DNA of 61,738 nucleotides from assembly GCA_938017975.1 (NCBI GenBank), contig CALIKQ010000037.1:1-61738 (forward strand), read 5' to 3'. Under the pieces are notes generated by a model. It was not told the DNA's origin. It ran no database searches and was given only the letters and a program-made list of their open reading frames with translations. This stretch comes from an uncultured Pseudomonadales bacterium (GTDB lineage Bacteria > Pseudomonadota > Gammaproteobacteria > Pseudomonadales > Azotimanducaceae). Shown here piece after piece: positions 49,526 through 60,097 of this stretch. Each line of letters opens with the position of its first letter. Within the stretch, counting starts at the first letter, position 1. The position numbers and the translations under genes were made by a program.

Positions 49526-49807
49526 CGGTCGTCTGAGGTTCGTCGAATCGGGTTTTGTATTACTCCCGGGCACAAGCCTTTTAATTGGGTGACAATTTCG
49601 GCACGGGGATCGATATCACCGTGAAATCGTCAAAACCAGATGCTGCTGCCCATAAAGTGGGTACGCCGGCGAAAGTGAACTGCGCAAAAATTAAATTGAA
49701 CCATGCTGCAGGGTGAGATTGTCTGTGACCCCAGCGAGGATCCTGGGGCCTGGCGACCTAAGCTGAGGTCCCTCGTCCGATGTTTTCGGTGAGATTGATG
49801 TTTTGCG

Positions 49808-50458
49808 CTATTCTCTGGTTCCCAAAGTCATCCCCTCCGGTATTGGTCCTTCGGGCGTGGTGGCTAGAAACGGTGCGGTTTGCTCCATTTCATCGCTTAA
49901 AGCTTGTAATTGGGTACAGTCCATTCGTTCGCAAAACCGCGTTCTTTTTTCAACGGCAAATTGCCAGAACACGGCGGCAGTGATTTCAGCTTGGGTAATC
50001 TGACTCCCAAAAAAACGCCCGTTGACGAGCTGAGCATCTAGCCAGCGAAATCCGTCTGCTGTCTGCTCATCGCACATCTTTGTCCATGGTTTATACACCT
50101 TGTCTTTGGGACGAAAGTGAAATTCGTACAACACAGTCACCAGTTTATCCACGGCGGCTGAGGCGATCCCGCAGAGGTTTTGTATTTTTCGCCGCTCCGG
50201 TCCAGATGACGGCGTGAGACGTTGATGCTCAGGTACGAGCATGTCCAGATAATCGAGGATGACTTGGCTCTCGGTCACAAATTCACCATCATCTAGCGCC
50301 AAGATAGGAATTCTTGCCACAGGATTGATCTGCCTCAATCGTGCTTTGGTGCGACCAAATGGGGTTACTTTTTTGATGTCGTGCGCAATTCCGTAGTGAC
50401 GGAGGGTGATGGCCACGCGCCGGGTGTAGGGAGAGGAGTAGGCGCCAATTAATTTCAC
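49808..50458 (-). CDS. Glutathione S-transferase
   Basis: A 216-residue GST. The N-terminal motif KLIGAYSSPYTRRVAITLRH has S8 or S9 as catalytic candidate, and the cis-Pro is in NPVARIPILAL. ESQVILDYLD binds the gamma-glutamyl part of glutathione. The C-terminal helical domain contains DAQLVNGRFFGSQITQAE, the N-capping box. Start is GTG with AGGAA six bases upstream. Conjugates or isomerises electrophiles; the substrate is not readable. Confidence 0.9.
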   Translation of the reverse strand: MKLIGAYSSPYTRRVAITLRHYGIAHDIKKVTPFGRTKARLRQINPVARIPILALDDGEFVTESQVILDYLDMLVPEHQRLTPSSGPERRKIQNLCGIASAAVDKLVTVLYEFHFRPKDKVYKPWTKMCDEQTADGFRWLDAQLVNGRFFGSQITQAEITAAVFWQFAVEKRTRFCERMDCTQLQALSDEMEQTAPFLATTPEGPIPEGMTLGTRE

Positions 50459-50657
50459 GTGTATTTCCTCAAGCTTGTAAGCGTTGTGGTCATGAACCCT
50501 ATCATAGCCCCACTGGTCAATGACCCGTTATTGTTGGTCAGGACAATCTGAAAAAATGAGCGATCACTTTCTTTAAAGCTAGGCTTACATTTCACGGAGA
50601 TATCGCGGCTTCTCCGGCCCTCATCGGATAATGATTCAACCGAGCGACTGTTTTTGA

Positions 50658-51575
50658 TCAGAGCATTTTTAACTCAGGCTCCTCGCCCGTGCTCCCCTTG
50701 GTCACACCAGCGACTTTAGAGTTGCGTCCAGACGTTCGGGGCATCTTGCGCGAGAGCTCTGGACCTGCGGCGGTTAGCCCTCCGTCAACCACCAGTGCAT
50801 CTCCAGTTACAAAAATAGAGTCGTCACTGGCGAAAAATAGGGCTGCTCCAGCGATATGATCTCCCTTTCCGTATTCGGGCCATGGTTGCGAGCGACTAAA
50901 TATTTCTCTGGTTTTTTCTGGTTTGCCCCCATCGGCGAGCGGTGTCGCGATAAATCCAGGACATATGGCGTTGACCCGAATCCGGTCTTGAGCCAGCTCT
51001 ACCGCCGCAGATTTTGTCATGCTCACAACCGCAGCTTTGGCCGCAGAGTAAACCAATGGCCCGGCATCGCCACTCAATGCCGCAATGGAGGCAGTATTGA
51101 TGATGGAGCCGCCACTTCCCTGGCGACGCATAATCCGTGCTGCATGTTTGATTCCAAGAAAAACGCCCTTCGCCAACACATCCATGGTGTAATCCCAAGA
51201 CTCAGTGGTGGTCTCCACCAACGGGCCAATCGCGCCCCCTACGCCGGCATTATTAAAAACAATATCTAACTGGCCAAACGTGTCTGAGGCTAAAACGAGT
51301 GCGGCCTCAACATCCTGTTCTCGCGCCACATCAGTGGCAATAAAGATGAGGCGCTCAATGAACCCAAGTCCTTCGGCTTCCTCCATCAGTGTCGCGCCAG
51401 TCGCTTGATTAAAATCAGCAACCACAACATTGGCCCCTTCAGCGAGAAAACGTAACGCCGTCGAACGCCCCATCCCACTGGCGCCACCTGTAATTACTGC
51501 AGTTTTCCCCGCTAAGCGCTTTGATTGTTGCTCGGATGCTGGCGTCGGCTTTTGCCTCGTGTTTTCACTTGTCAT
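50658..51575 (-). CDS. Short-chain dehydrogenase/reductase
   Basis: A 305-residue SDR. Motifs are VITGGASGMGRSTA (dinucleotide binding), NNAG (FNNAGVG), and YSAAKAAV (Tyr-Lys pair). Long hydrophilic extensions flank the domain at both ends: about 20 residues at the start and about 35 at the end, ending EEPELKML. The N-terminal start ATG at 51575 has GGAC upstream. Substrate unknown. Confidence 0.9.
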   Translation of the reverse strand: MTSENTRQKPTPASEQQSKRLAGKTAVITGGASGMGRSTALRFLAEGANVVVADFNQATGATLMEEAEGLGFIERLIFIATDVAREQDVEAALVLASDTFGQLDIVFNNAGVGGAIGPLVETTTESWDYTMDVLAKGVFLGIKHAARIMRRQGSGGSIINTASIAALSGDAGPLVYSAAKAAVVSMTKSAAVELAQDRIRVNAICPGFIATPLADGGKPEKTREIFSRSQPWPEYGKGDHIAGAALFFASDDSIFVTGDALVVDGGLTAAGPELSRKMPRTSGRNSKVAGVTKGSTGEEPELKML

Positions 51576-51910
51576 ACATGTCCTTTCTTCTGATCAAAAC
51601 AGTATTATGCGAATAGCCAGGCTGTAAAAGCAGTGTTCGCATAGCTCCCTCTCTATTGTGCACCGTCCCTCTAAGCCTAAGAATTCTTTTTTTAGACGAA
51701 GGGCTGCTTTAATGCAGCGAACTTTTCAAAGCGACCGGTGGTTCACTTGAACGCCAATGATTGATGCAACTACGCCGAGTGAGGCTAATCTGTGGGTCGA
51801 GTAAGGGTCGCTTGAGAACCTATGTCTGGGTAGCACCAAAGGTGTCATGGCTTGGTCAACCTAAACGATGGTGGTTGCTGTTGCACCTGCGAACACTGGA
51901 TTTTCCTGTC
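51576..51910. other. Intergenic region without a gene
   Basis: About 335 bases between the SDR gene and the membrane-protein gene. I see no convincing gene, palindrome or terminator; open frames there are antisense shadows or lack ribosome sites. Confidence 0.4.
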
Positions 51911-52255
51911 TTAGGGTATGCGATGGACATTCTCATCTTTTGGTTCCATCTCGTAGGACTTTTTGATCTTGGTATATTGCTGCTGTCGCCATTCGGCCTC
52001 TAGACCACGTCCAGCTATCCACAAGTACAGCCCTATCAAAACAATTAGAAAAGCGATAAAGCAACCGGCCCAGAGAAACAGCGCTTCAAAAGAGAGAGAC
52101 GTTATCCAATCGGGGAGGTCTTTTGGCGGTATGAACTGATCAGACGGATCCCGGCCCATATAGTGATCCAGCGCGAGCATTGAAATGCACCCAAGCAGCC
52201 AGGGAAGGGACGAACGCCAACTCGGCTTCTGTTTAGATGAGGTTGTACTTTTCAT
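51911..52255 (-). CDS. Two-helix membrane protein of unknown function
   Basis: A 114-residue protein with two hydrophobic helices: SLPWLLGCISMLALDHYMG (about 16-34) and FEALFLWAGCFIAFLIVLIGLYLWIAG (about 57-83), then a basic, Gln-rich cytoplasmic tail (EWRQQQYTKIKKSYE). I do not recognise it. ATG at 52255 is preferred over a TTG 30 bases earlier; no clear ribosome site. It is 44 bases downstream of the aldo/keto reductase stop on the same strand and may be co-transcribed. Confidence 0.6.
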   Translation of the reverse strand: MKSTTSSKQKPSWRSSLPWLLGCISMLALDHYMGRDPSDQFIPPKDLPDWITSLSFEALFLWAGCFIAFLIVLIGLYLWIAGRGLEAEWRQQQYTKIKKSYEMEPKDENVHRIP

Positions 52256-52299
52256 TGGTGCGTTACAATCAAGGGCGCTTTCCAATCTAGATCGAGGAT

Positions 52300-53307
52300 C
52301 TAGGTCTCTTCAAATTCAAATTGCTCTGTTGTTACCGTTGCCTGCGCTAAATCTGAGTACCGGGGCCCGGATACACGATGAGGGGCAAAATCTTCGTTCA
52401 TTTGCGTCAGCACATCTATCGGAAGCTGGATGTCAGCAGCATCGAAGTTGTCTTGCAGGTGCTGAAGGTTTGTTGTGCCAGGAATTGGCACGGACCCAGC
52501 ATCCTGTGCAAGGGTCCATGATAGAGCGAGCTGCGCGATTGAGCACCCAATATCGCTTGCGTATTGTCGAGCCTTCTCTAAGAGGCCTAGGTTGGCTGAG
52601 AAGTGCGGGTCGGTGAAGCGCGGAAAGGTTCGTCGCAAATCGGTTTTGTGGTACTGATCTGGATCAAGCGGTTGGTCAGCGAGATAGCCTCGGCCAACGG
52701 GAGAAAAAGGCACAAAAGTAACGCCCAGATCCCTGCAGGCGTCGAGCACCGCGATTTCTGGATTTCTCGTCATCAACGAGTACTCAGACTGCATGGCTGA
52801 AATTGGGTGAACAGCATGGGCTTTACGCAGCGTGTCTGCCGACATTTCTGATAGACCAATCATGCGAATCTTGCCCTCGCCAACCAAATCGGCCAGCGCA
52901 CCAACGGAATCTTCAATGGGGATGTTGGGGTCAGGGCGATGCATATAGTAGAGGTCAATGACGTCAGTCTGGAGTCGCTCTAAACTCGCTTCACAGGCTA
53001 GTTTAATCGTCTCTGGCCGAGCATCCAGGAAACGTTTGCCATCTCTGAAACCCATCACACATTTGCTGGCTAATACAAAGTCATTGCGTCGTTCCTTGAG
53101 CGCTTCACCAATTAGTTTTTCGTTGTTACCCATACCATAAATGGTGGCGGTATCAAGAAAGTCATAGCCAATATCAATGGCCCGCAGCAGGAAATCAATT
53201 GCATCTTTATGATCCATGGCTGGCCCATAAGCATGACTCAAATTCATGCATCCAAGTCCGACAGGGTGCACATCTAAAGAGCCGATTTTTCTTTTGACGG
53301 TGGTCAT
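52300..53307 (-). CDS. Aldo/keto reductase
   Basis: A 335-residue member of the AKR family. Catalytic residues follow the AKR pattern: D in DFLDTATIYGMGNNE (Asp and Tyr), K in VLASKCV, H in YYMHRPD. The VPIPGTTNLQHL motif binds the NADP. It reduces aldehydes and ketones such as methylglyoxal. AGGAA precedes the ATG. A 12-bp palindrome TACTCTAGAGTA (53337-53348) lies 30 bases upstream and may be an operator. Confidence 0.92.
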   Translation of the reverse strand: MTTVKRKIGSLDVHPVGLGCMNLSHAYGPAMDHKDAIDFLLRAIDIGYDFLDTATIYGMGNNEKLIGEALKERRNDFVLASKCVMGFRDGKRFLDARPETIKLACEASLERLQTDVIDLYYMHRPDPNIPIEDSVGALADLVGEGKIRMIGLSEMSADTLRKAHAVHPISAMQSEYSLMTRNPEIAVLDACRDLGVTFVPFSPVGRGYLADQPLDPDQYHKTDLRRTFPRFTDPHFSANLGLLEKARQYASDIGCSIAQLALSWTLAQDAGSVPIPGTTNLQHLQDNFDAADIQLPIDVLTQMNEDFAPHRVSGPRYSDLAQATVTTEQFEFEET

Positions 53308-53700
53308 TGTATTCCTTTTTGTCTGCGTGATGACTGTACTCTAGAGTAGCTTAAAGGCATCCCAACTGTCAGCAGAACGGAGTGTTTAGTCTCAATATAG
53401 CGTAAATTAAAGAATGGAGCGCCCAGCCATCAGCGTTGCCGACAAGCAGCAACTGGCATCATCATCGGATTAATCCTGAGCCATATCTTGAGCTGTAGTT
53501 GAGGATGTAAGTTCGAGGAAATTCTTATGCTAAAGCCGCGTTTGAAGGTTAGGGGCTTAATGCAAGCCAGCGCGTGTGAGTTTCCCCGCTTGTTTGAAAT
53601 CCGGTTTGGTTATTCCGTAGGCGCTTTCGTTGCGAAGCCTGCCCGTGTCGCGTTCTCGAGAGACTTGACCGGTCTTCGAATTATCAGTTAGCGTGTCGGA
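53308..53700. other. Intergenic region with a 12-bp palindrome
   Basis: About 390 bases between divergent genes. TACTCTAGAGTA (53337-53348) is a perfect palindrome close to the aldo/keto reductase start. No gene is visible; the minus-strand frame at 53557-53739 has no ribosome site. Confidence 0.4.
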
Positions 53701-54816
53701 ATGTCTGATGTGCTCGAAACGATTCCCGAAGACCTGCAAGACGATGTGAGTGCTGCGTTAGCTTGGTTCAACGCGCATGAAAATGGTTCGTTTGAAGTGA
53801 CCGGCATTGTTGATCCTCCAGCGGCGTCTGCCGATGTCAAGGATCTTCGTTTGGTACTCTGTGGTGACGGTGTTTGTCGTCAAGAAACCTTCCAAGTGAG
53901 CGCCTCAACTGATCTGCCCACAGTGCGTTGGTTAGGTATAGATCACGCGCAAGACAGTGTTGGCGTTGCTGAACTTGATCCACCTCCTGGCGCAAGAAAA
54001 TCATGGTTAGCCGATGTGGCGGCGGCGCATCCCTTTACTGTGTTGCTGTTTTATCGTGGGTTTTGGTGACCTCCTTGCCGCCTCGAGTTACGAGGCTACG
54101 TTTTCAGCGGAGTGGTCGATGCGATTCGGGCTGCAGGTGGCGAAGTCTATGCGGTCACCAGTGAGCCTCAAGCCCTCGCTTCTCGAGCCCAGGATGAATG
54201 GGAGCTCTCGATTGAGTGTGTAGGCGACCCGCATCAGGAAATCGCCGAGGCTGCACGCCAGCAGGGAATGTTGGATTTGCGAACGAGTGAGGTTGGCGAG
54301 TTTATTACTCGCGATACAACTTGGGGGGTATCCCATCCGAAGGGGTTTTATCAGCCCGGAGTTCTTGCGCTGACCTCTGAGCGTCTCCTGTATCGTTGGC
54401 AGTCTATTCCAAACCGAAAGAATATGGGCGGCGCTGGGGGCAGGCCGACGGAAGATTATGTTTGGCAGAAAGTCCAGGACGCCCTGGCCGATACGTCTGC
54501 AACCGACGCTGGTTTAGACGAGGCACCTATTACAGCGGGGAAGGCGCCACCGTTTTTCTTATTTTCATTGATGCTCATGGCGCACGGTTGGTTTATCCGT
54601 CCTAAAGCATTTACGTATCAGGCAGACGGCGTGAACCCAATGCAGCGATTCCCGTGGGTGCTCATGCGCCTTGTTGCCTTTTTAGGGTGCTGGATGATGG
54701 CTTTCGTGCTGTTGCCTACTGCCTGGGTCGGTTTTGTATTAGCCCTTTATATGCCCATCGCGATTCTGGGTGTTCGAAAGGTTTATCTTACTTTTGCCGT
54801 GGAAGTCCCAGAGTAA
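53701..54816 (+). CDS. Candidate selenoprotein: peroxiredoxin-like protein with UxxC motif
   Basis: A 371-codon frame interrupted only by an in-frame TGA at codon 123 (54067-54069). Before it reads LLFYRGFW, after it PPCRLELRGY, so the codon sits exactly where the first Cys of CxxC (RGxWCPxC) stands in AhpC/TSA-like proteins, giving W-U-P-P-C with C126. The downstream part keeps family features (GGEVYAVTSEPQ, VSHPKGFYQPGVLALT) and the frame is unbroken to 54816, so this is not decay. A SECIS-like hairpin follows the TGA. If read without Sec, the gene would stop at residue 122 and the second half would start at 54112. Residues 1-75 form an unrecognised N-terminal domain, and residues 285-360 contain two or more transmembrane helices. 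Sec-specific machinery is not in this window. Confidence 0.85.
54070..54096 (+). promoter_or_regulatory. SECIS-like hairpin after the in-frame TGA
   Basis: Ten bases after the TGA comes a 17-base hairpin, GCCTCG-AGTTA-CGAGGC (54080-54096): six perfect pairs and a five-base loop with G at position 2. The apical loop begins 17 bases after the UGA. This matches the bacterial SECIS rules (short stem, G among the first two loop bases, spacing 16-37) and the E. coli fdhF element, where a 17-base upper hairpin is 11 bases from UGA. Folding was done by eye. Confidence 0.8.
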
Positions 54817-54871
54817 CGGCTTTTCCCTGAACCATTGTTGCCTGAAACTTTCGGTGATGCGCCGCAACAGG

Positions 54872-55573
54872 CTACTCGCTCGGACGAGCCCGGGCGCGAG
54901 CGATGGCTTCTTCCGCCATCTTGCGCTCAGTGCCGTCAAGCCTGGCCTGCATGCCCTTGTTCATTTCATCGAGAATTTTGGCTGCAAACTCATTGCCTTG
55001 GATTTTGTTCCAATACGCCGACACACGAGATCCATCCAAGATGGGGCTATCAAAACCAAGACGAGGCACCGTGCTGCTACACATCCACAAGGCGGGTACC
55101 AAGGTGCAGTCAGCGCGTGTTAGCGAGTTGCCCACGGCAAATTCGCCGTCGCCAATATGTTTTTCCAGCGCCCCGATTCCGCGCTTTACTTGTCCGATCA
55201 GTAGATCGAGTACAGCTTGCACGCGTGTTTCCGGATTGGCTTGGCTAAGCGACATAAAAATATTATTCATCAGATAAATGTCAGCAATCCTTGAAATAAC
55301 TCTGACATCCGCGCGATCCTTAAGTGAGGCTCCAGTGAGCGCCTTGCCGGGAAATCGCTCGTCAAGATATTCGGAAATGACCTCTGATTCGGGGATGAGG
55401 CCCTCATCGACTTCCAAGACGGGGATTCGACCAATCGGAGAAATCTCATACATTTTTCCCATCATGAACTGTACGGGCAGGTCGAAACTTAACTCGTCCT
55501 GAATGCCCATTGCATAAATTTGCATGCGTACTTTTGCACTGTAGGGGCTGAGATTACCGGTATATAACTTCAT
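54872..55573 (-). CDS. Glutathione S-transferase
   Basis: A 233-residue GST. N-terminal KLYTGNLSPYSAKVRMQIY has a Ser at the catalytic position (S9 or S12), and ISPIGRIPVLEV has the cis-Pro. PESEVISEYLDERFPG binds glutathione. The C-terminal box is GEFAVGNSLTRADCTLVPAL. AAAAGG precedes the ATG. It converges on the UxxC gene, with 55 bases between, an arrangement that links two thiol enzymes. Confidence 0.9.
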   Translation of the reverse strand: MKLYTGNLSPYSAKVRMQIYAMGIQDELSFDLPVQFMMGKMYEISPIGRIPVLEVDEGLIPESEVISEYLDERFPGKALTGASLKDRADVRVISRIADIYLMNNIFMSLSQANPETRVQAVLDLLIGQVKRGIGALEKHIGDGEFAVGNSLTRADCTLVPALWMCSSTVPRLGFDSPILDGSRVSAYWNKIQGNEFAAKILDEMNKGMQARLDGTERKMAEEAIARARARPSE

Positions 55574-56010
55574 AAATCACCTTTTATAACGTGTTAGCTG
55601 TTTTCGCGTTGAGCGATTCCTAGGATGCCTGAGATTGACAGTCCGTCAGCGCTCTGACAATCGACATGTTTTGTGACGAGCAAGCGACAAAGCTATCTTA
55701 CCGATTCACTGTGATGGTTTCGCGAAGGATTCAATCTTAACCAAGCATGGTCTGAATCCTTGGTGAACGTCAAGGAGGCGGTGAGCGCTATTGCGGCTTG
55801 CGCCTTGAGTGCCGACATGGATCACCCATCGCGAAAGGCGGGGTGTGGCTGATTGTGAGAATCGGTCCATGCAAGGATGAATGCGTCTTGATGATCGCAC
55901 AGTGAGGCAACTCATTTCTTGCCCATGACCCTGAAACGGTTCGTGACAAGGAGGTGGGTGATTGAGTCATCAATGCCGCAGATGATTACTTTTGGCAACT
56001 GGGGCAGTGA
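55574..56010. other. Intergenic region without a convincing gene
   Basis: About 440 bases between two minus-strand genes. Short frames there (for example 55706-55915, 55788-55973) lack ribosome sites or recognisable motifs. Nothing else is visible. Confidence 0.4.
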
Positions 56011-57051
56011 CTAATTGTCGGCAATGAAAGCAACAAGTCGGGTCGCCAACACCTCGCCCTGAGTCTCCTGAATGAAGTGACCGGCCGGGATTCTGTCGTG
56101 GGGTAAGCCTTGAGCGCCCGGAATGTTGTCGATTAGCGTATTTTGAATTTTCTCTGAACCCACCAGCATGTCGAACGCACCAAAAACGGTTAAGAAAGGT
56201 TTCGTAAACTGTTGTAACGCTTCCCACGCTGCAAGGCTTGCGTCTACGTCGATCATAGAGGCCATACTGGGTAGGGTGCGAATGCCGGTCATATAAATTT
56301 CAGAAGGAAACGGCGCGTCGTACGCCCGAATCTCATCCGGGGTTAATTTGATGCCGCCGAAGTCCCGTCTGATGTTGTCGCTTGCCCGTAGCTCTGGCCC
56401 TGTTAAAGCGTATGTCATCCATCCTTGAAAAAAATCCGACATGTCTTCTTTGATGTAGCCCTTGTCCTGACAGACCTTGAGGAAATCATCAAAGGTGCGA
56501 ATTGGCGAGTCTGGATCGACTGGGTAGTCTTCTCGTCTGATGCCGAGCGGAATGTTCAAGACAGGTTCAGGCATGAGATTAAGTGCCGTGTTTGAAACCA
56601 TCACTCGCTGAAAGTATTCGGGATGGTGAGCAACTGTGATCAAGCTGGTGAAACCGCCCCAATCTTGGCCAAACAAGGTGATGTCTTTGAGGCCTAATGC
56701 CTGAATCAGCTTTAGCCACCAGGCTGCATGCGCATAGATGGTGTGCGTGTGAAGATCTGTAGGTTTGTCCGATCGTCCCATCCCGATCATATCGGGCGCA
56801 ATGACCCGGCAGCCCGCCGCCGCGATGATAGGAATCATTTTTCGGTAAAGATAAGACCAATCGGGTTGACCGTGAAGCAATAGTACTGTCGGTCCGTCTT
56901 TTGGGCCTTCATCGATGTAATGCATGCGCAGGCCGTCAATTGCTATGTAATGGGGTTGGTATGAAAAGTCGGACAAATTTTCGAACTGCGCCTCGGGGGT
57001 GCGAACGAAGACTCTGCCATCTGCGGTGTGCCGGAGCGGTGAATCCATCAT
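56011..57051 (-). CDS. Haloalkane dehalogenase-like alpha/beta hydrolase (HLD-I type)
   Basis: A 346-residue protein. It has the HLD-I pattern: RTPEAQFENL at the start, oxyanion HGQPDWSYLYRKM (H60-W65), nucleophile D130 with the adjacent halide-binding W131 in FGQDWGG, and catalytic His (PAGHF, about 325). A Trp in the cap (FFQGWMTY) may be the second halide ligand. Note HGQPDW in place of the more usual HGEPTW. HLD-I enzymes hydrolyse haloalkanes to alcohols; many relatives act on natural substrates. The second of three possible start codons (ATG at 57051) has AAGGA six bases upstream. Confidence 0.85.
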   Translation of the reverse strand: MMDSPLRHTADGRVFVRTPEAQFENLSDFSYQPHYIAIDGLRMHYIDEGPKDGPTVLLLHGQPDWSYLYRKMIPIIAAAGCRVIAPDMIGMGRSDKPTDLHTHTIYAHAAWWLKLIQALGLKDITLFGQDWGGFTSLITVAHHPEYFQRVMVSNTALNLMPEPVLNIPLGIRREDYPVDPDSPIRTFDDFLKVCQDKGYIKEDMSDFFQGWMTYALTGPELRASDNIRRDFGGIKLTPDEIRAYDAPFPSEIYMTGIRTLPSMASMIDVDASLAAWEALQQFTKPFLTVFGAFDMLVGSEKIQNTLIDNIPGAQGLPHDRIPAGHFIQETQGEVLATRLVAFIADN

Positions 57052-57578
57052 CAATGTTCCTTTTTCGAAATGGGTCGATCTAGGTAAAACTGGTCAGTTG
57101 CGGTGTTTCGGTTTGACAAAGATCATTCGTAGTCCAATCCACGCAGGTCATATAATAATGGTTGGCATTAATAAAAGGTAGGTGAAATCAATCTAGGCAT
57201 CAAGAAATTCAGGGTAAGGGTTACCAGACGCTGCGCTGGGATATCGGCTAAAAATGTACTCTAGATGTGTGGCTTAACAAGTTGTGCCTTGGTGCCGCTT
57301 CGCGCTTTGGTTCTTTTAAGGTTGATGTTCCTTTTGTCTGTCTGAAGCCGCGATCTAGCCGGACTGATATAAATTAAAATAAATAAAAACAGTAGTTTAT
57401 AAAAATTATCTAATCGTATTTACAGATCTTGAGAGGTGAAATCAATCGACTAGCAATGTTAGGCTTCAAAAGTTTGCATGAGTCTGCGATGGGTATTTAG
57501 GGGGTCTTCTTGGTGTCTGCCGGTGCTAAAAAGACTGCTTCAAGCACCGATTGAGGATCAGCCGTTTACAAGCGTCTC
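57052..57578. other. AT-rich intergenic region
   Basis: Part of a 638-base gap upstream of the TetR gene at 57690. It contains an AT-rich centre around 57370-57420 and no convincing gene. The promoter and palindrome are at its right end. Confidence 0.5.
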
Positions 57579-57623
57579 TTGAAATGACCGGCGATCAGTT
57601 ATATAAATAACTATCGGTCATTT
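57579..57623 (+). promoter_or_regulatory. Promoter overlapped by inverted repeat (TetR autoregulation)
   Basis: A -35 TTGAAA (57579-57584) and a -10 TATAAA (57602-57607) with a 17-base spacer precede the TetR gene. The arms AAATGACCG (57582-57590) and CGGTCATTT (57615-57623) form a perfect outer inverted repeat, with an inner AGTTAT-ATAA-ATAACT palindrome. The repeat covers the whole promoter, as in autorepressed TetR genes, and likely controls the aldehyde dehydrogenase as well. Confidence 0.6.
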
Positions 57624-57689
57624 AAATATGTCTAGGTAGTTCATTTGTAAAAAGACGGTAAAGGCCTGAACCCTAGCAATCAGATCATC

Positions 57690-58382
57690 ATGGGTGATAA
57701 AGCAGTCGTGAGTGGCATTGTTGCAATTAATCAAAGAGCAAGAAGTGCCGAACAAAAGGCGCTGCGGCGCCAAGTGGTCCTAGAAGTTGCTGAGACGTAC
57801 TTTCGCGAGGTTGGCTATGAGGCATTTTCGATGGCCCAACTCGCCAAGAAAGCGGGCTTGGTCAAGGGCACGTTGTATCTTTACTTCACAACGAGGGAAG
57901 AACTTTTTCTGACCTTGTATGAGCAAAGCCTGATGCGATGGGGCCAGGTTTTTATTGGTTCTCTGTCGGAACCCATGACGAGTCGAGCTTACGCCGAGCG
58001 TCTCTATAGCACCGCTCTGATGGATGGCGCTTTCTTACCCTTACTGATAAGGCTTGAACATGTTATCGAGCATAACGTTTCGATTTCCAGACTGATCCAG
58101 TCGAAACGTGTCTTCATACGCCAGGTCGAGGCTTTCGCAGAGGCCACCTCAACTGTCCTGCAATTAAGTGAAGCGCAAGCCAGAGAAGTGGTAAAAACCA
58201 TGGGCGTTTTGTTAATTGGTGCGACGCGATCTGACCAGGGACCATCCCTCGATAACGAGGCACTGCCTCAGGACGTGCAAGCGTTGATTGCCAGCTTTGC
58301 GTCCGAACCGCTCTTTATTAAGAACGCAGTTCGGATTATAGAGGGCATACGCGCTGAAGCTGCCCCACCATCTAATCAATAA
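57690..58382 (+). CDS. TetR family regulator
   Basis: A 230-residue TetR-type regulator. The helix-turn-helix is at about 46-71 (FSMAQLAKKAGLVKGTLYLYFTTREELF). It begins about 67 bases after a promoter-operator palindrome and is 36 bases upstream of the aldehyde dehydrogenase gene on the same strand, so the pair forms an operon regulated by its own product. Confidence 0.9.
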   Translation: MGDKAVVSGIVAINQRARSAEQKALRRQVVLEVAETYFREVGYEAFSMAQLAKKAGLVKGTLYLYFTTREELFLTLYEQSLMRWGQVFIGSLSEPMTSRAYAERLYSTALMDGAFLPLLIRLEHVIEHNVSISRLIQSKRVFIRQVEAFAEATSTVLQLSEAQAREVVKTMGVLLIGATRSDQGPSLDNEALPQDVQALIASFASEPLFIKNAVRIIEGIRAEAAPPSNQ

Positions 58383-58418
58383 CCACAAGTAATCCCATAG
58401 CAGTTTAGGAGAATAGGC

Positions 58419-59879
58419 ATGAGCATCGCAGAGCATGACAACGTTACAGAATTGGGGGTTCAAAACCTTAAGGCATTGGTCGAGCTGCAAAGGCGTCAAT
58501 TTCGAGCTGAGGGTGAGGTCACCTACGCAACCAGAATTGATCGTTTAAAGCGGCTCAAGGCTCTGATCGTTGAAAATAAGACGGCGTTTGCAAACACCAC
58601 CAAGCGCGAGTTTAACGGTGCACGATCTTATGAGTTCAGCTTGTTCTCAGAGTTTGCGTCGAAGGTGGAGGCCATTGACTATTCCATAAAGCACCTAAAA
58701 GCTTGGATGCAACCTGAAAAACGAAAAACCAATAAGCCGATGAATTTTTTAGGAGGAAAGAGCCAGGTCAGGTACTTTCCGAAGGGTGTGGTGGGTATTA
58801 TTTCCCCATGGAATCTACCGTTTGGCTTGACCGTCGCGCCCCTGACCAGTGCGCTGGCCGCAGGCAACCGAGCACTCCTGAAGCCTTCAGAATATGTCCC
58901 CGAAACGGCGGCATTATTTGCTGAAGTGATGCCCCAATACTTTTCTGAGGATGAAGTTGCGGTGGTGACGGGTGGCGCAGATATCAGTCAACGATTTGCT
59001 GAGCTGCCGTTCGACCATCTTCTATTTACAGGATCGACTCGCGTCGGTGCGCAAGTGATGCAGTCGGCATCAAAAAACCTCGTGCCAGTCACATTAGAAC
59101 TCGGCGGCAAGTCACCTGTTATCATCGGTCGTACTGCAAAACTCGATCTCGCTGGAACACGTCTGACCTTTGGTAAGCTATTAAATGGTGGTCAGTTATG
59201 CCTTTCCCCAGATTATGTCTTGGTCCCCAGGGAGCTGGAAAAGGCGCTCATTGCTCGGGTCATTGACGAGGCGCAGGCAATGTACCCCAACATCACTGAA
59301 AACACCGATTACGCTGGTGTTTTTAATGAAAGACACTTCGACCGGTTGCAGCACTATATAGATGATGCTGTTTCCAAAGGTGCGAAACTCACCATTGTTG
59401 GTGCTGATCGGACTCGCGCTTCGGCAGAAAATCGTCGCATGCCACTGCATATACTCCAGAACGTCAGCGAAGACATGCAGGTTATGCAGGAGGAGATTTT
59501 TGGTCCTATCCTGCCGATCATGACCTATTCTGATATTACCGAGGTGCCAGATATGATCGAGCCTCGTCGAACACCGCTTGCGATGTACTATTTTGGCAAA
59601 GATAAAAGTGAAGAGGCGTATTTGCTCAATCACGTGCAAAGTGGCGGGGTGTGTATCAACGATATTACACTGCATTACGTTCAGGAAGATTTGCCGTTTG
59701 GGGGCTTTGGTGCGTCTGGCATGGGGGCCTATCACGGTCCAGAAGGCTTTAAAAATATGAGTCACGCACGCGCCATTTATAGCCAAACCATGATCGATGT
59801 TTTGCCGATCATCGGCGCACGACCGCCTTTTGGCGATAAATTCCGCAAGCGAATTAGCAAAACCCTGGGATTAATTTGA
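58419..59879 (+). CDS. Coniferyl-aldehyde dehydrogenase-type aldehyde dehydrogenase
   Basis: A 486-residue aldehyde dehydrogenase. Catalytic C261 is in NGGQLCLSPDYV and E227 in TLELGGKSP, with the PWNLPFGLTVAPLT and FTGSTRVG nucleotide-binding segments. The LCLSPDYVLVP form and the tail around PFGGFGASGMGAYHGPEGF resemble the coniferyl-aldehyde group rather than the betaine-aldehyde group. It would oxidise aromatic or fatty aldehydes to acids using NAD(P). AGGAGA precedes the ATG. Regulated with the upstream TetR gene. Confidence 0.9.
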   Translation: MSIAEHDNVTELGVQNLKALVELQRRQFRAEGEVTYATRIDRLKRLKALIVENKTAFANTTKREFNGARSYEFSLFSEFASKVEAIDYSIKHLKAWMQPEKRKTNKPMNFLGGKSQVRYFPKGVVGIISPWNLPFGLTVAPLTSALAAGNRALLKPSEYVPETAALFAEVMPQYFSEDEVAVVTGGADISQRFAELPFDHLLFTGSTRVGAQVMQSASKNLVPVTLELGGKSPVIIGRTAKLDLAGTRLTFGKLLNGGQLCLSPDYVLVPRELEKALIARVIDEAQAMYPNITENTDYAGVFNERHFDRLQHYIDDAVSKGAKLTIVGADRTRASAENRRMPLHILQNVSEDMQVMQEEIFGPILPIMTYSDITEVPDMIEPRRTPLAMYYFGKDKSEEAYLLNHVQSGGVCINDITLHYVQEDLPFGGFGASGMGAYHGPEGFKNMSHARAIYSQTMIDVLPIIGARPPFGDKFRKRISKTLGLI

Positions 59880-60097
59880 GTCATCGCTCGAGACGGTTTA
59901 TTGCCTGTTGTTTCGATCCAATTCGGTGACGAGTCAACAGGTGCCGGCTTCCGTGGTGCAGGTGCTTAGACGTCGAGCCCACCCAGGAAGGTCGCGCAGC
60001 CGCGATAGAGGTGGATGGCACCTCCAGCAACAGGAGGCCCTGGCTTTATGCGCCTGATCTAGGTGCGGGCCTTTGCCAAGCGTGCGAAGCTCATGTT
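59880..60097. other. Short convergent intergenic region
   Basis: A 218-base gap between two converging genes. On the minus strand a short natural-looking frame contains an internal TAG, so I do not call a gene. No terminator is clear. Confidence 0.35.

Follow-up and report, generated by a model that had tools for sequence, protein, structure and literature searches.

The window, a stretch of DNA of 61,738 nucleotides, carries a gene whose TGA at codon 123 is almost certainly read as selenocysteine (Sec), which gives a predicted selenoprotein of 371 residues (Table 1). As a whole, the data are best explained by a membrane-tethered peroxiredoxin-like (Prx-like) Sec enzyme with SECIS-directed decoding of UGA, and we hold this explanation with good confidence. 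The original prediction of a frame split by a single TGA was borne out. Its call of a selenoprotein is strongly supported by the conserved TGA, the fixed codons of a SECIS hairpin, the presence of tRNA-Sec and SelD, and a Cys at the equivalent column of distant relatives.

Table 1. Position of the gene, its predicted elements and two neighbouring genes in the window.
Feature	Position	Strand	Basis
Predicted selenoprotein gene	53701..54816	+	371 residues incl. U123, TAA stop; layout common to 17/17 homologues
TGA, predicted to be read as selenocysteine 123	54067..54069	+	TGA in 18/18 family members
Predicted bacterial SECIS hairpin GCCTCG-AGTTA-CGAGGC	54080..54096	+	Fold, conservation, published model criteria
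N-terminal domain and linker, residues 1-98	53701..53994	+	Predicted helix and four strands; C54/C59 invariant (CGxxxC)
AhpC/TSA thioredoxin-fold core, residues 111-184	54031..54252	+	PF00578 32.9 bits, cut-off 26; active site RGFWUPPCR
C-terminal hydrophobic hairpin, residues about 317-364	54649..54792	+	Kyte-Doolittle; low-confidence predicted helices 313-336, 340-367
Two glutathione S-transferase genes	49808-50458; 54872-55573	-; -	Pfam

The frame contains no second in-frame TGA. Downstream of codon 123, in the context RGFW-U-PPCR, 248 codons remain open up to the TAA, and the other two frames have 8 and 6 stops over this part. At the base composition of the window, 248 open codons are expected by chance with a probability of about 6e-6. 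A scan of the window for TGA-split frames, which kept solely those with a redox-like motif close to the TGA, found 122 codons before the TGA in this gene; the downstream lengths of the runners-up were 181, 147 and 102 codons. Both before and after the TGA, the frame shows purifying selection. Against homologue L013, dN/dS is 0.175/0.973 before the TGA and 0.100/1.752 after it, and pN/pS against L009, L013 and L016 is 0.20–0.29 before and 0.14–0.17 after. Residues 281-371 alone give 0.20–0.22 against the same three. In the comparisons with L017 to L020, saturation of dS affects at least a part of each, and pN/pS is 0.24–0.63. These values come from 7 of the 17 homologue pairs.

The 17 homologues were retrieved from a genome collection by a scan with six peptide patterns, which returned 40 candidate stretches. 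The UxxC motif was not among the patterns, and therefore Sec was not favoured over Cys among the relatives. Protein identity to the window protein is 48–81%. All 17 loci carry TGA at the equivalent codon with frames open on either side, and none carries Cys. As each of these loci lies on a separate contig, a sequencing error is practically excluded, and the correction to TGC, TGT or TGG considered in the original prediction is not what the homologues show. According to the record titles, the hosts are uncultured Gammaproteobacteria and Pseudomonadales, the K189A clade, HTCC2089, which falls within this clade, a Pseudohongiella and one 'Myxococcales' bin. The family member from this last bin (L019, 63% identity) may reflect misbinning or transfer.

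In a search of 38 genomes including the window's own, 13 match at E 0.001. The gene is present in six of them at E 5.5e-80 or better (own genome, four at 79–80% and G004 at 43%); every copy has a single TGA, located at the same motif. The other seven give core-only matches with E from 1e-5 to 1e-3. The four genomes at 79–80% overlap with the 17 homologues and are not independent of them: L036 equals L016 in DNA over the gene, and L035, L037 and L038 match L009, L012 and L014 around the motif. A profile search across 369 genomes of the class yielded 27 matches at E 1e-6. The full-length match is that of the own genome, and the other 26 cover parts of residues 78-265 with no inner stop. Together with eight loci from the 38-genome search, these 26 form a set of 34 distant or weak loci. 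Column 123 is U in six of them, including the family member of G004, and Cys in 28, and the second Cys of the motif is retained in all 34. Homologues lacking a Cys at this position, which had been named as evidence against the prediction, did not turn up, since CPxC aligns to UPPC in 28/28 non-TGA relatives examined. A Cys ortholog of the full architecture was not found among the homologues retrieved. Viral contigs gave 222 pattern stretches and no relative of the gene, the phages searched gave no match, and the plasmids searched gave one record, a 'peroxiredoxin-like family protein' that is 31% identical over 37% of the query.

These comparisons bear on the reading of the TGA as an ordinary stop, by which the product would be a 122-residue protein and the frame beyond it a separate or a decayed one (pseudogene). 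In favour of this reading, 5 of 12 neighbouring frames examined end at TGA, and selA and selB are missing from the own assembly. Against it stand the purifying selection 3' of the TGA, the Cys at column 123 of distant relatives and the frozen codons of the hairpin. The same TGA with an open downstream frame in 17/17 homologues also speaks against it. This reading is strongly disfavoured, and we regard it as highly improbable.

The Sec reading is further supported by the RNA downstream of the codon. The sequence GCCUCG-AGUUA-CGAGGC forms a hairpin that starts 10 nt after the UGA. It agrees on all four counts with the bacterial SECIS (bSECIS) model, as laid out in parts of PMC13188914: the loop has 5 nt (model 3–9 nt) with G then U at positions 2 and 3 (model G at position 1 or 2), the stem has 6 bp (model 4–16 bp), the spacing from UGA to loop is 16 nt (model 16–37 nt) and the minimum free energy over the 41 nt from the UGA is −10.4 kcal/mol (model −7.5 or lower). 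Codons 127, 128, 129, 131 and 132 are identical in 18/18 sequences, as is that of U123, and codon 130, which contributes its third base to the loop, is TTA or TTG. Among 106 amino-acid-invariant columns of the 18 sequences, with Met and Trp excluded, none of the other 99 has a fully identical codon, including none of 63 that are four- or sixfold degenerate. Random sets of six columns never reached the observed mean identity (0/100000). In L039, the most distant member (43%), the third pair is changed from C-G to U-A and the hairpin is retained, with L128 replaced by F and G132 by S. This double change preserves the helix at the cost of the protein. It is a single event in one sequence, affects 1/6 pairs and is equalled by 33/500 shuffles.

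The folding energy of the window hairpin is not exceptional, with z of −0.67 for 44 nt and −1.71 for 41 nt; five relatives range from −1.82 to −2.73. An Rfam scan of the window found no family at gathering score. Because the energy alone is unremarkable and no Rfam family reaches this score, the case for a SECIS element rests on conservation. In addition to the 6-bp hairpin, RNAalifold suggested 12 pairs, two of which have changes in both partners. Six of the 12, including both of these, are broken in some sequences, and for this reason we do not accept the extra pairs as structure.

A hairpin of this kind might instead be an intrinsic terminator or attenuator. It is indeed among four terminator-like matches in 53300-54900, where 2.1 are expected from shuffles. 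What is conserved is the stem and loop, however, and the T-rich tail varies (GAAAAAGG in L017, GAAGAAGG in L023). The hairpin also sits within a conserved coding frame and at SECIS spacing, which leaves a terminator with hardly any probability in our judgement.

Decoding of the UGA as Sec requires a dedicated machinery, and the original prediction had named absence of sel genes as evidence against it. For the own genome this is half the case: tRNA-Sec and selD are present, but selA and selB were not found in the assembly, which is 96.5% complete. The tRNA-Sec with anticodon tca is located at C24:7251-7341 (ARAGORN) and scores 45.8 bits in Rfam, just below the gathering score of 47. selD (C24:8928-9833) scores 272 bits with an NCBIfam cut-off of 125. 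It makes up the C-terminal portion of a frame of 745 aa on the minus strand (1387-3624 of L063, from the same C24), which has Pyr_redox_2 in its N-terminal and AIRS/AIRS_C in its C-terminal part; selD and the tRNA-Sec gene are about 1.6 kb apart. The frame matches the Ndh-SelD fusion type described in part of PMC2398784. For selB, the best match to TIGR00475 in the own genome reaches 190 bits and the cut-off is 242. Of the six gene-carrying genomes, three (G002, G008, G010) have selA and also selB, in G008 on two contig pieces; neither was found in G004 (73% complete) or G014 (80% complete). Among seven genomes checked, ARAGORN finds tRNA-Sec in six (own, G002, G003, G004, G008 and G010, not G014), and selD is above cut-off in five, with G008 and G014 as exceptions. 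In G003 (8 contigs, 93% complete) tRNA-Sec and selD are present, selA gives no match, selB gives none over cut-off, and the window gene has no homologue there; this points either to a gap or to ongoing loss of Sec in the lineage. In 11 of 21 genomes searched selA occurs without the window gene, as is expected if other selenoproteins use it.

The surroundings of selA and selB bear on their absence. In G002, G005 and G012 selA adjoins a large gene, for which a Pfam match is absent (tested for G005); a SPOR identity of this gene is not supported by Pfam. In G002 and G005 selB is near an MlaE-type permease gene. In the own genome, a search with the protein of the gene beside selA gave no match and a DNA-level search with the 16-kb selAB region found no part of it, both run without positive control. 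The MlaE permease search was likewise negative there, and G002 and G014 were positive in the same search. Genomes of the same genus that carry the window gene have selA, selB and those neighbour genes found missing in the own assembly. That the neighbour genes and the 16-kb region are missing along with selA and selB suggests, without proving it, a gap in the assembly. In G010 selAB is at the contig start and the permease is likewise absent. In G014 the distance from the permease to the start of the contig is 1 kb, and with the spacing of G002 selB would be placed past the edge.

With selA and selB missing, synthesis of Sec is not demonstrable from the own assembly alone, and this gives some room for a non-Sec residue at codon 123, by near-cognate Trp or Arg readthrough or by a reassigned code. 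A reassigned code is unlikely because 5/12 neighbouring frames end in TGA; these frames were defined mechanically and 8/12 were checked by Pfam. Insertion of another residue is also at variance with the presence of tRNA-Sec and SelD, with a hairpin that fits the bSECIS model and with Cys, the usual counterpart of Sec, in 28/28 non-TGA relatives examined. We consider it to have almost no likelihood.

Given Sec at codon 123, the question arises what the protein does. The PF00578 core is matched in 18/18 family members at E 0.1 or better. Redoxin (PF08534) covers the same region below cut-off, with E 0.0011 in the window protein and likewise in 18/18 members, and FA_desaturase is matched weakly in three members (best E 0.017). 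PDB sequence matches place U123 at the first Cys of a WCPPC of thioredoxin/tryparedoxin type; they are short and non-significant (E 0.6 or worse), and a profile search of the PDB gave no match at E 0.01. The AlphaFold model of the full-length protein is poor, with a mean pLDDT of 59 and values under 50 for the active-site segment 120-133. Foldseek with this model returns thioredoxin-fold proteins as best matches, all weak (E 1.3e-3 or worse). Because of the poor model, the enzymology rests on motif and family. We take the protein to be very probably a thiol/selenol redox enzyme.

According to parts of PMC13188914, Sec-peroxiredoxins of PF00578 have the motif TxxU, in line with the Thr-x-x-Cys/Sec of peroxiredoxins, and Prx-like thiol:disulfide oxidoreductases have UxxC or UxxU. 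The window protein has UPPC together with PF00578 above cut-off, which is the combination of the latter, and the Thr-x-x-Cys/Sec of the former does not describe its site. On this classification a peroxidatic Cys does not follow. The claim that Sec replaces such a residue is unsupported, as U123 corresponds to the first Cys of the WCPPC type, and it was probably wrong. From its sequence we would class the window protein as a UxxC Prx-like selenoprotein, and from this we infer its enzymatic function.

The membrane-linked peroxidase or reductase of the original prediction can be kept in part: hydropathy supports the hydrophobic C-terminal helices, and a peroxidase is one option among several. In a true peroxidase, Sec would attack H2O2 or alkyl or lipid hydroperoxides at the inner membrane instead of acting as a disulfide oxidoreductase. 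The AhpC/TSA domain is consistent with this, and the hydrophobic tail would put the enzyme near lipid peroxides. The weak fold matches (best E 1.3e-3) include AhpC, PrxQ, tryparedoxin and human prostamide/prostaglandin F synthase, which stand there among thiol-disulfide oxidoreductases. The UxxC motif speaks against it, as Sec-peroxiredoxins are TxxU in the same parts of PMC13188914. The short PDB sequence matches are mostly of the thioredoxin/tryparedoxin WCPPC type, with none named peroxiredoxin and none significant. A peroxidase is therefore a possibility that we take seriously, with the balance somewhat against it.

The core is flanked by two further elements. The N-terminal domain had been predicted at 75 residues; it is present, but nearer to 80 residues with a linker to about residue 98. 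Modelled alone by AlphaFold it reaches a mean pLDDT of 78. C54 and C59 are invariant in 18/18 members and retained in L039, too. In the model they flank a tight turn between predicted strands 46-55 and 58-67 and should therefore face each other. The domain has no Pfam match at E 0.01 and no PHROGs match at E 0.1, and a fold search returned designed, cystatin- and monellin-like chains at a best E of 0.07, which is not significant. At the C-terminus, Kyte-Doolittle values for 19-residue windows from 317 to 364 exceed 1.5 almost throughout. Hydropathy thus makes it probable that this hairpin tethers the protein at the membrane.

For the favoured Prx-like Sec enzyme we propose the following mechanism. 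SelB and tRNA-Sec(UCA) would decode UGA 123 as Sec, directed by the downstream hairpin. The product would face the cytosol as a membrane-tethered Prx-like thiol:disulfide oxidoreductase or reductase, anchored at the inner membrane by the C-terminal hydrophobic hairpin, as hydropathy and basic residues on both sides suggest. By analogy with the fold family, Sec123 of UxxC would act as nucleophile on the thioredoxin fold, with a disulfide or a (lipid) peroxide as its target, and resolution of the intermediate as a selenenylsulfide would fall to Cys126. The N-terminal pair C54/C59 on adjacent strands might pass electrons to the U123-C126 bond, a relay that is conjectural and that we think rather doubtful.

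The genomic surroundings give no pointer to the substrate in the operon comparison of 18 loci. We compared stop-to-stop frames of at least 90 codons in the flanks of the 17 loci and in 49700-59900 of the window. No conserved operon was found: besides the two halves of the gene, any one frame occurs in 4 of the 18 loci at most. Genes for glutathione S-transferases are found nearby repeatedly, at differing positions (Pfam matches in the window, L010 and L022). Other neighbours in the window are, by Pfam, genes for an SDR, an aldo/keto reductase, an alpha/beta-hydrolase, OsmC and an aldehyde dehydrogenase. The neighbourhood is detoxification-like and mostly unconserved in the homologues.

Marine surveys have already recorded Prx-like selenoproteins with a UxxC motif (parts of PMC2398784, PMC9402790 and PMC9312934). 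With the 'Prx-like 1' thiol:disulfide oxidoreductases of GOS (parts of PMC2398784) the window family shares PF00578 above gathering, Sec in UxxC and occurrence in marine bacteria; it adds the N-terminal domain with invariant C54/C59 and the C-terminal hydrophobic hairpin. 'Prx-like 1' has 2,740 Cys homologues and 225 Sec forms in GOS, whereas no Cys ortholog of the full window architecture was found. 'Prx-like 3' (pfam08534 at E above 0.001, UxxC; 2,608 Cys homologues and 68 Sec forms; same source) shares the motif, and the window protein matches PF08534, but PF00578 is the better score here. Fusions of Prx-like Sec domains to other domains, usually with conserved Cys, are a further likeness (parts of PMC2398784; a Prx-like/DsbC fusion in part of PMC9402790). 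The Unknown_3 fusion has CxxC, in contrast to the CxxxxC of the window's N-terminal domain (PMC2398784, in part), and the window family may be identical with the GOS Unknown_2 fusion. For pfam04592 (Prx-like 2) and Pfam11412 (DsbC) we found no match in the window protein at E 1. Sec peroxiredoxins share the PF00578 superfamily with the window protein, but have Sec as the last residue of TxxU instead of the first of UxxC (PMC13188914, in part).

No NCBIfam model scores close to its cut-off with the window protein. The SelL-related NF040769 comes closest, with 14.5 bits and a cut-off of 120, over residues 111-183 of the same thioredoxin-fold region; it is a weak match in 18/18 members (best E 0.00092). 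In contrast to SelL, whose motif is UxxU, the window protein has a single Sec. Because no NCBIfam model reaches its cut-off, annotation pipelines probably truncate the protein at the TGA. Five loci of the same genus or family (L041, L043 to L046) encode AhpC/TSA proteins with RGHWUPxC, in which Sec aligns to U123 within a UPxC motif. They match the window protein over the core only, at E 1e-4 to 1e-3, and no similar N-terminal domain was seen in their frames. They are further candidates for AhpC/TSA selenoproteins; four have short frames (162–194 aa open) and that of L041 is longer.

We found no description of the three-part architecture, or of a full-length family without Cys member, in the open-access PMC literature searched. 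Apparently new are the combination of an N-terminal CxxxxC domain with a C-terminal hydrophobic hairpin, the lack of any Cys ortholog found and of an NCBIfam model. GOS Figure S1 includes Prx-like fusions to unknown domains, and earlier fragments of the family are therefore possible. For selenoprotein families, many Cys relatives are the rule with few exceptions, as stated in part of PMC13188914. A full-length family seen so far only in Sec form, with a frozen in-frame SECIS element, is a clean case for asking why Sec persists, and Prx-like selenoproteins gain an apparently membrane-attached architecture. In the most far-reaching reading, which we put forward as speculative and unlikely, the Sec-only family joins a membrane-tethered UxxC domain of thioredoxin fold and the C54/C59 dithiol, in a domain without known family, in one chain. 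The protein would then be an electron relay based on selenium and complete in itself, and its substrates for reduction would be lipid peroxides, endoperoxides or disulfides. If true, such a relay, with no Cys version so far, would act at the inner membrane of marine gammaproteobacteria.
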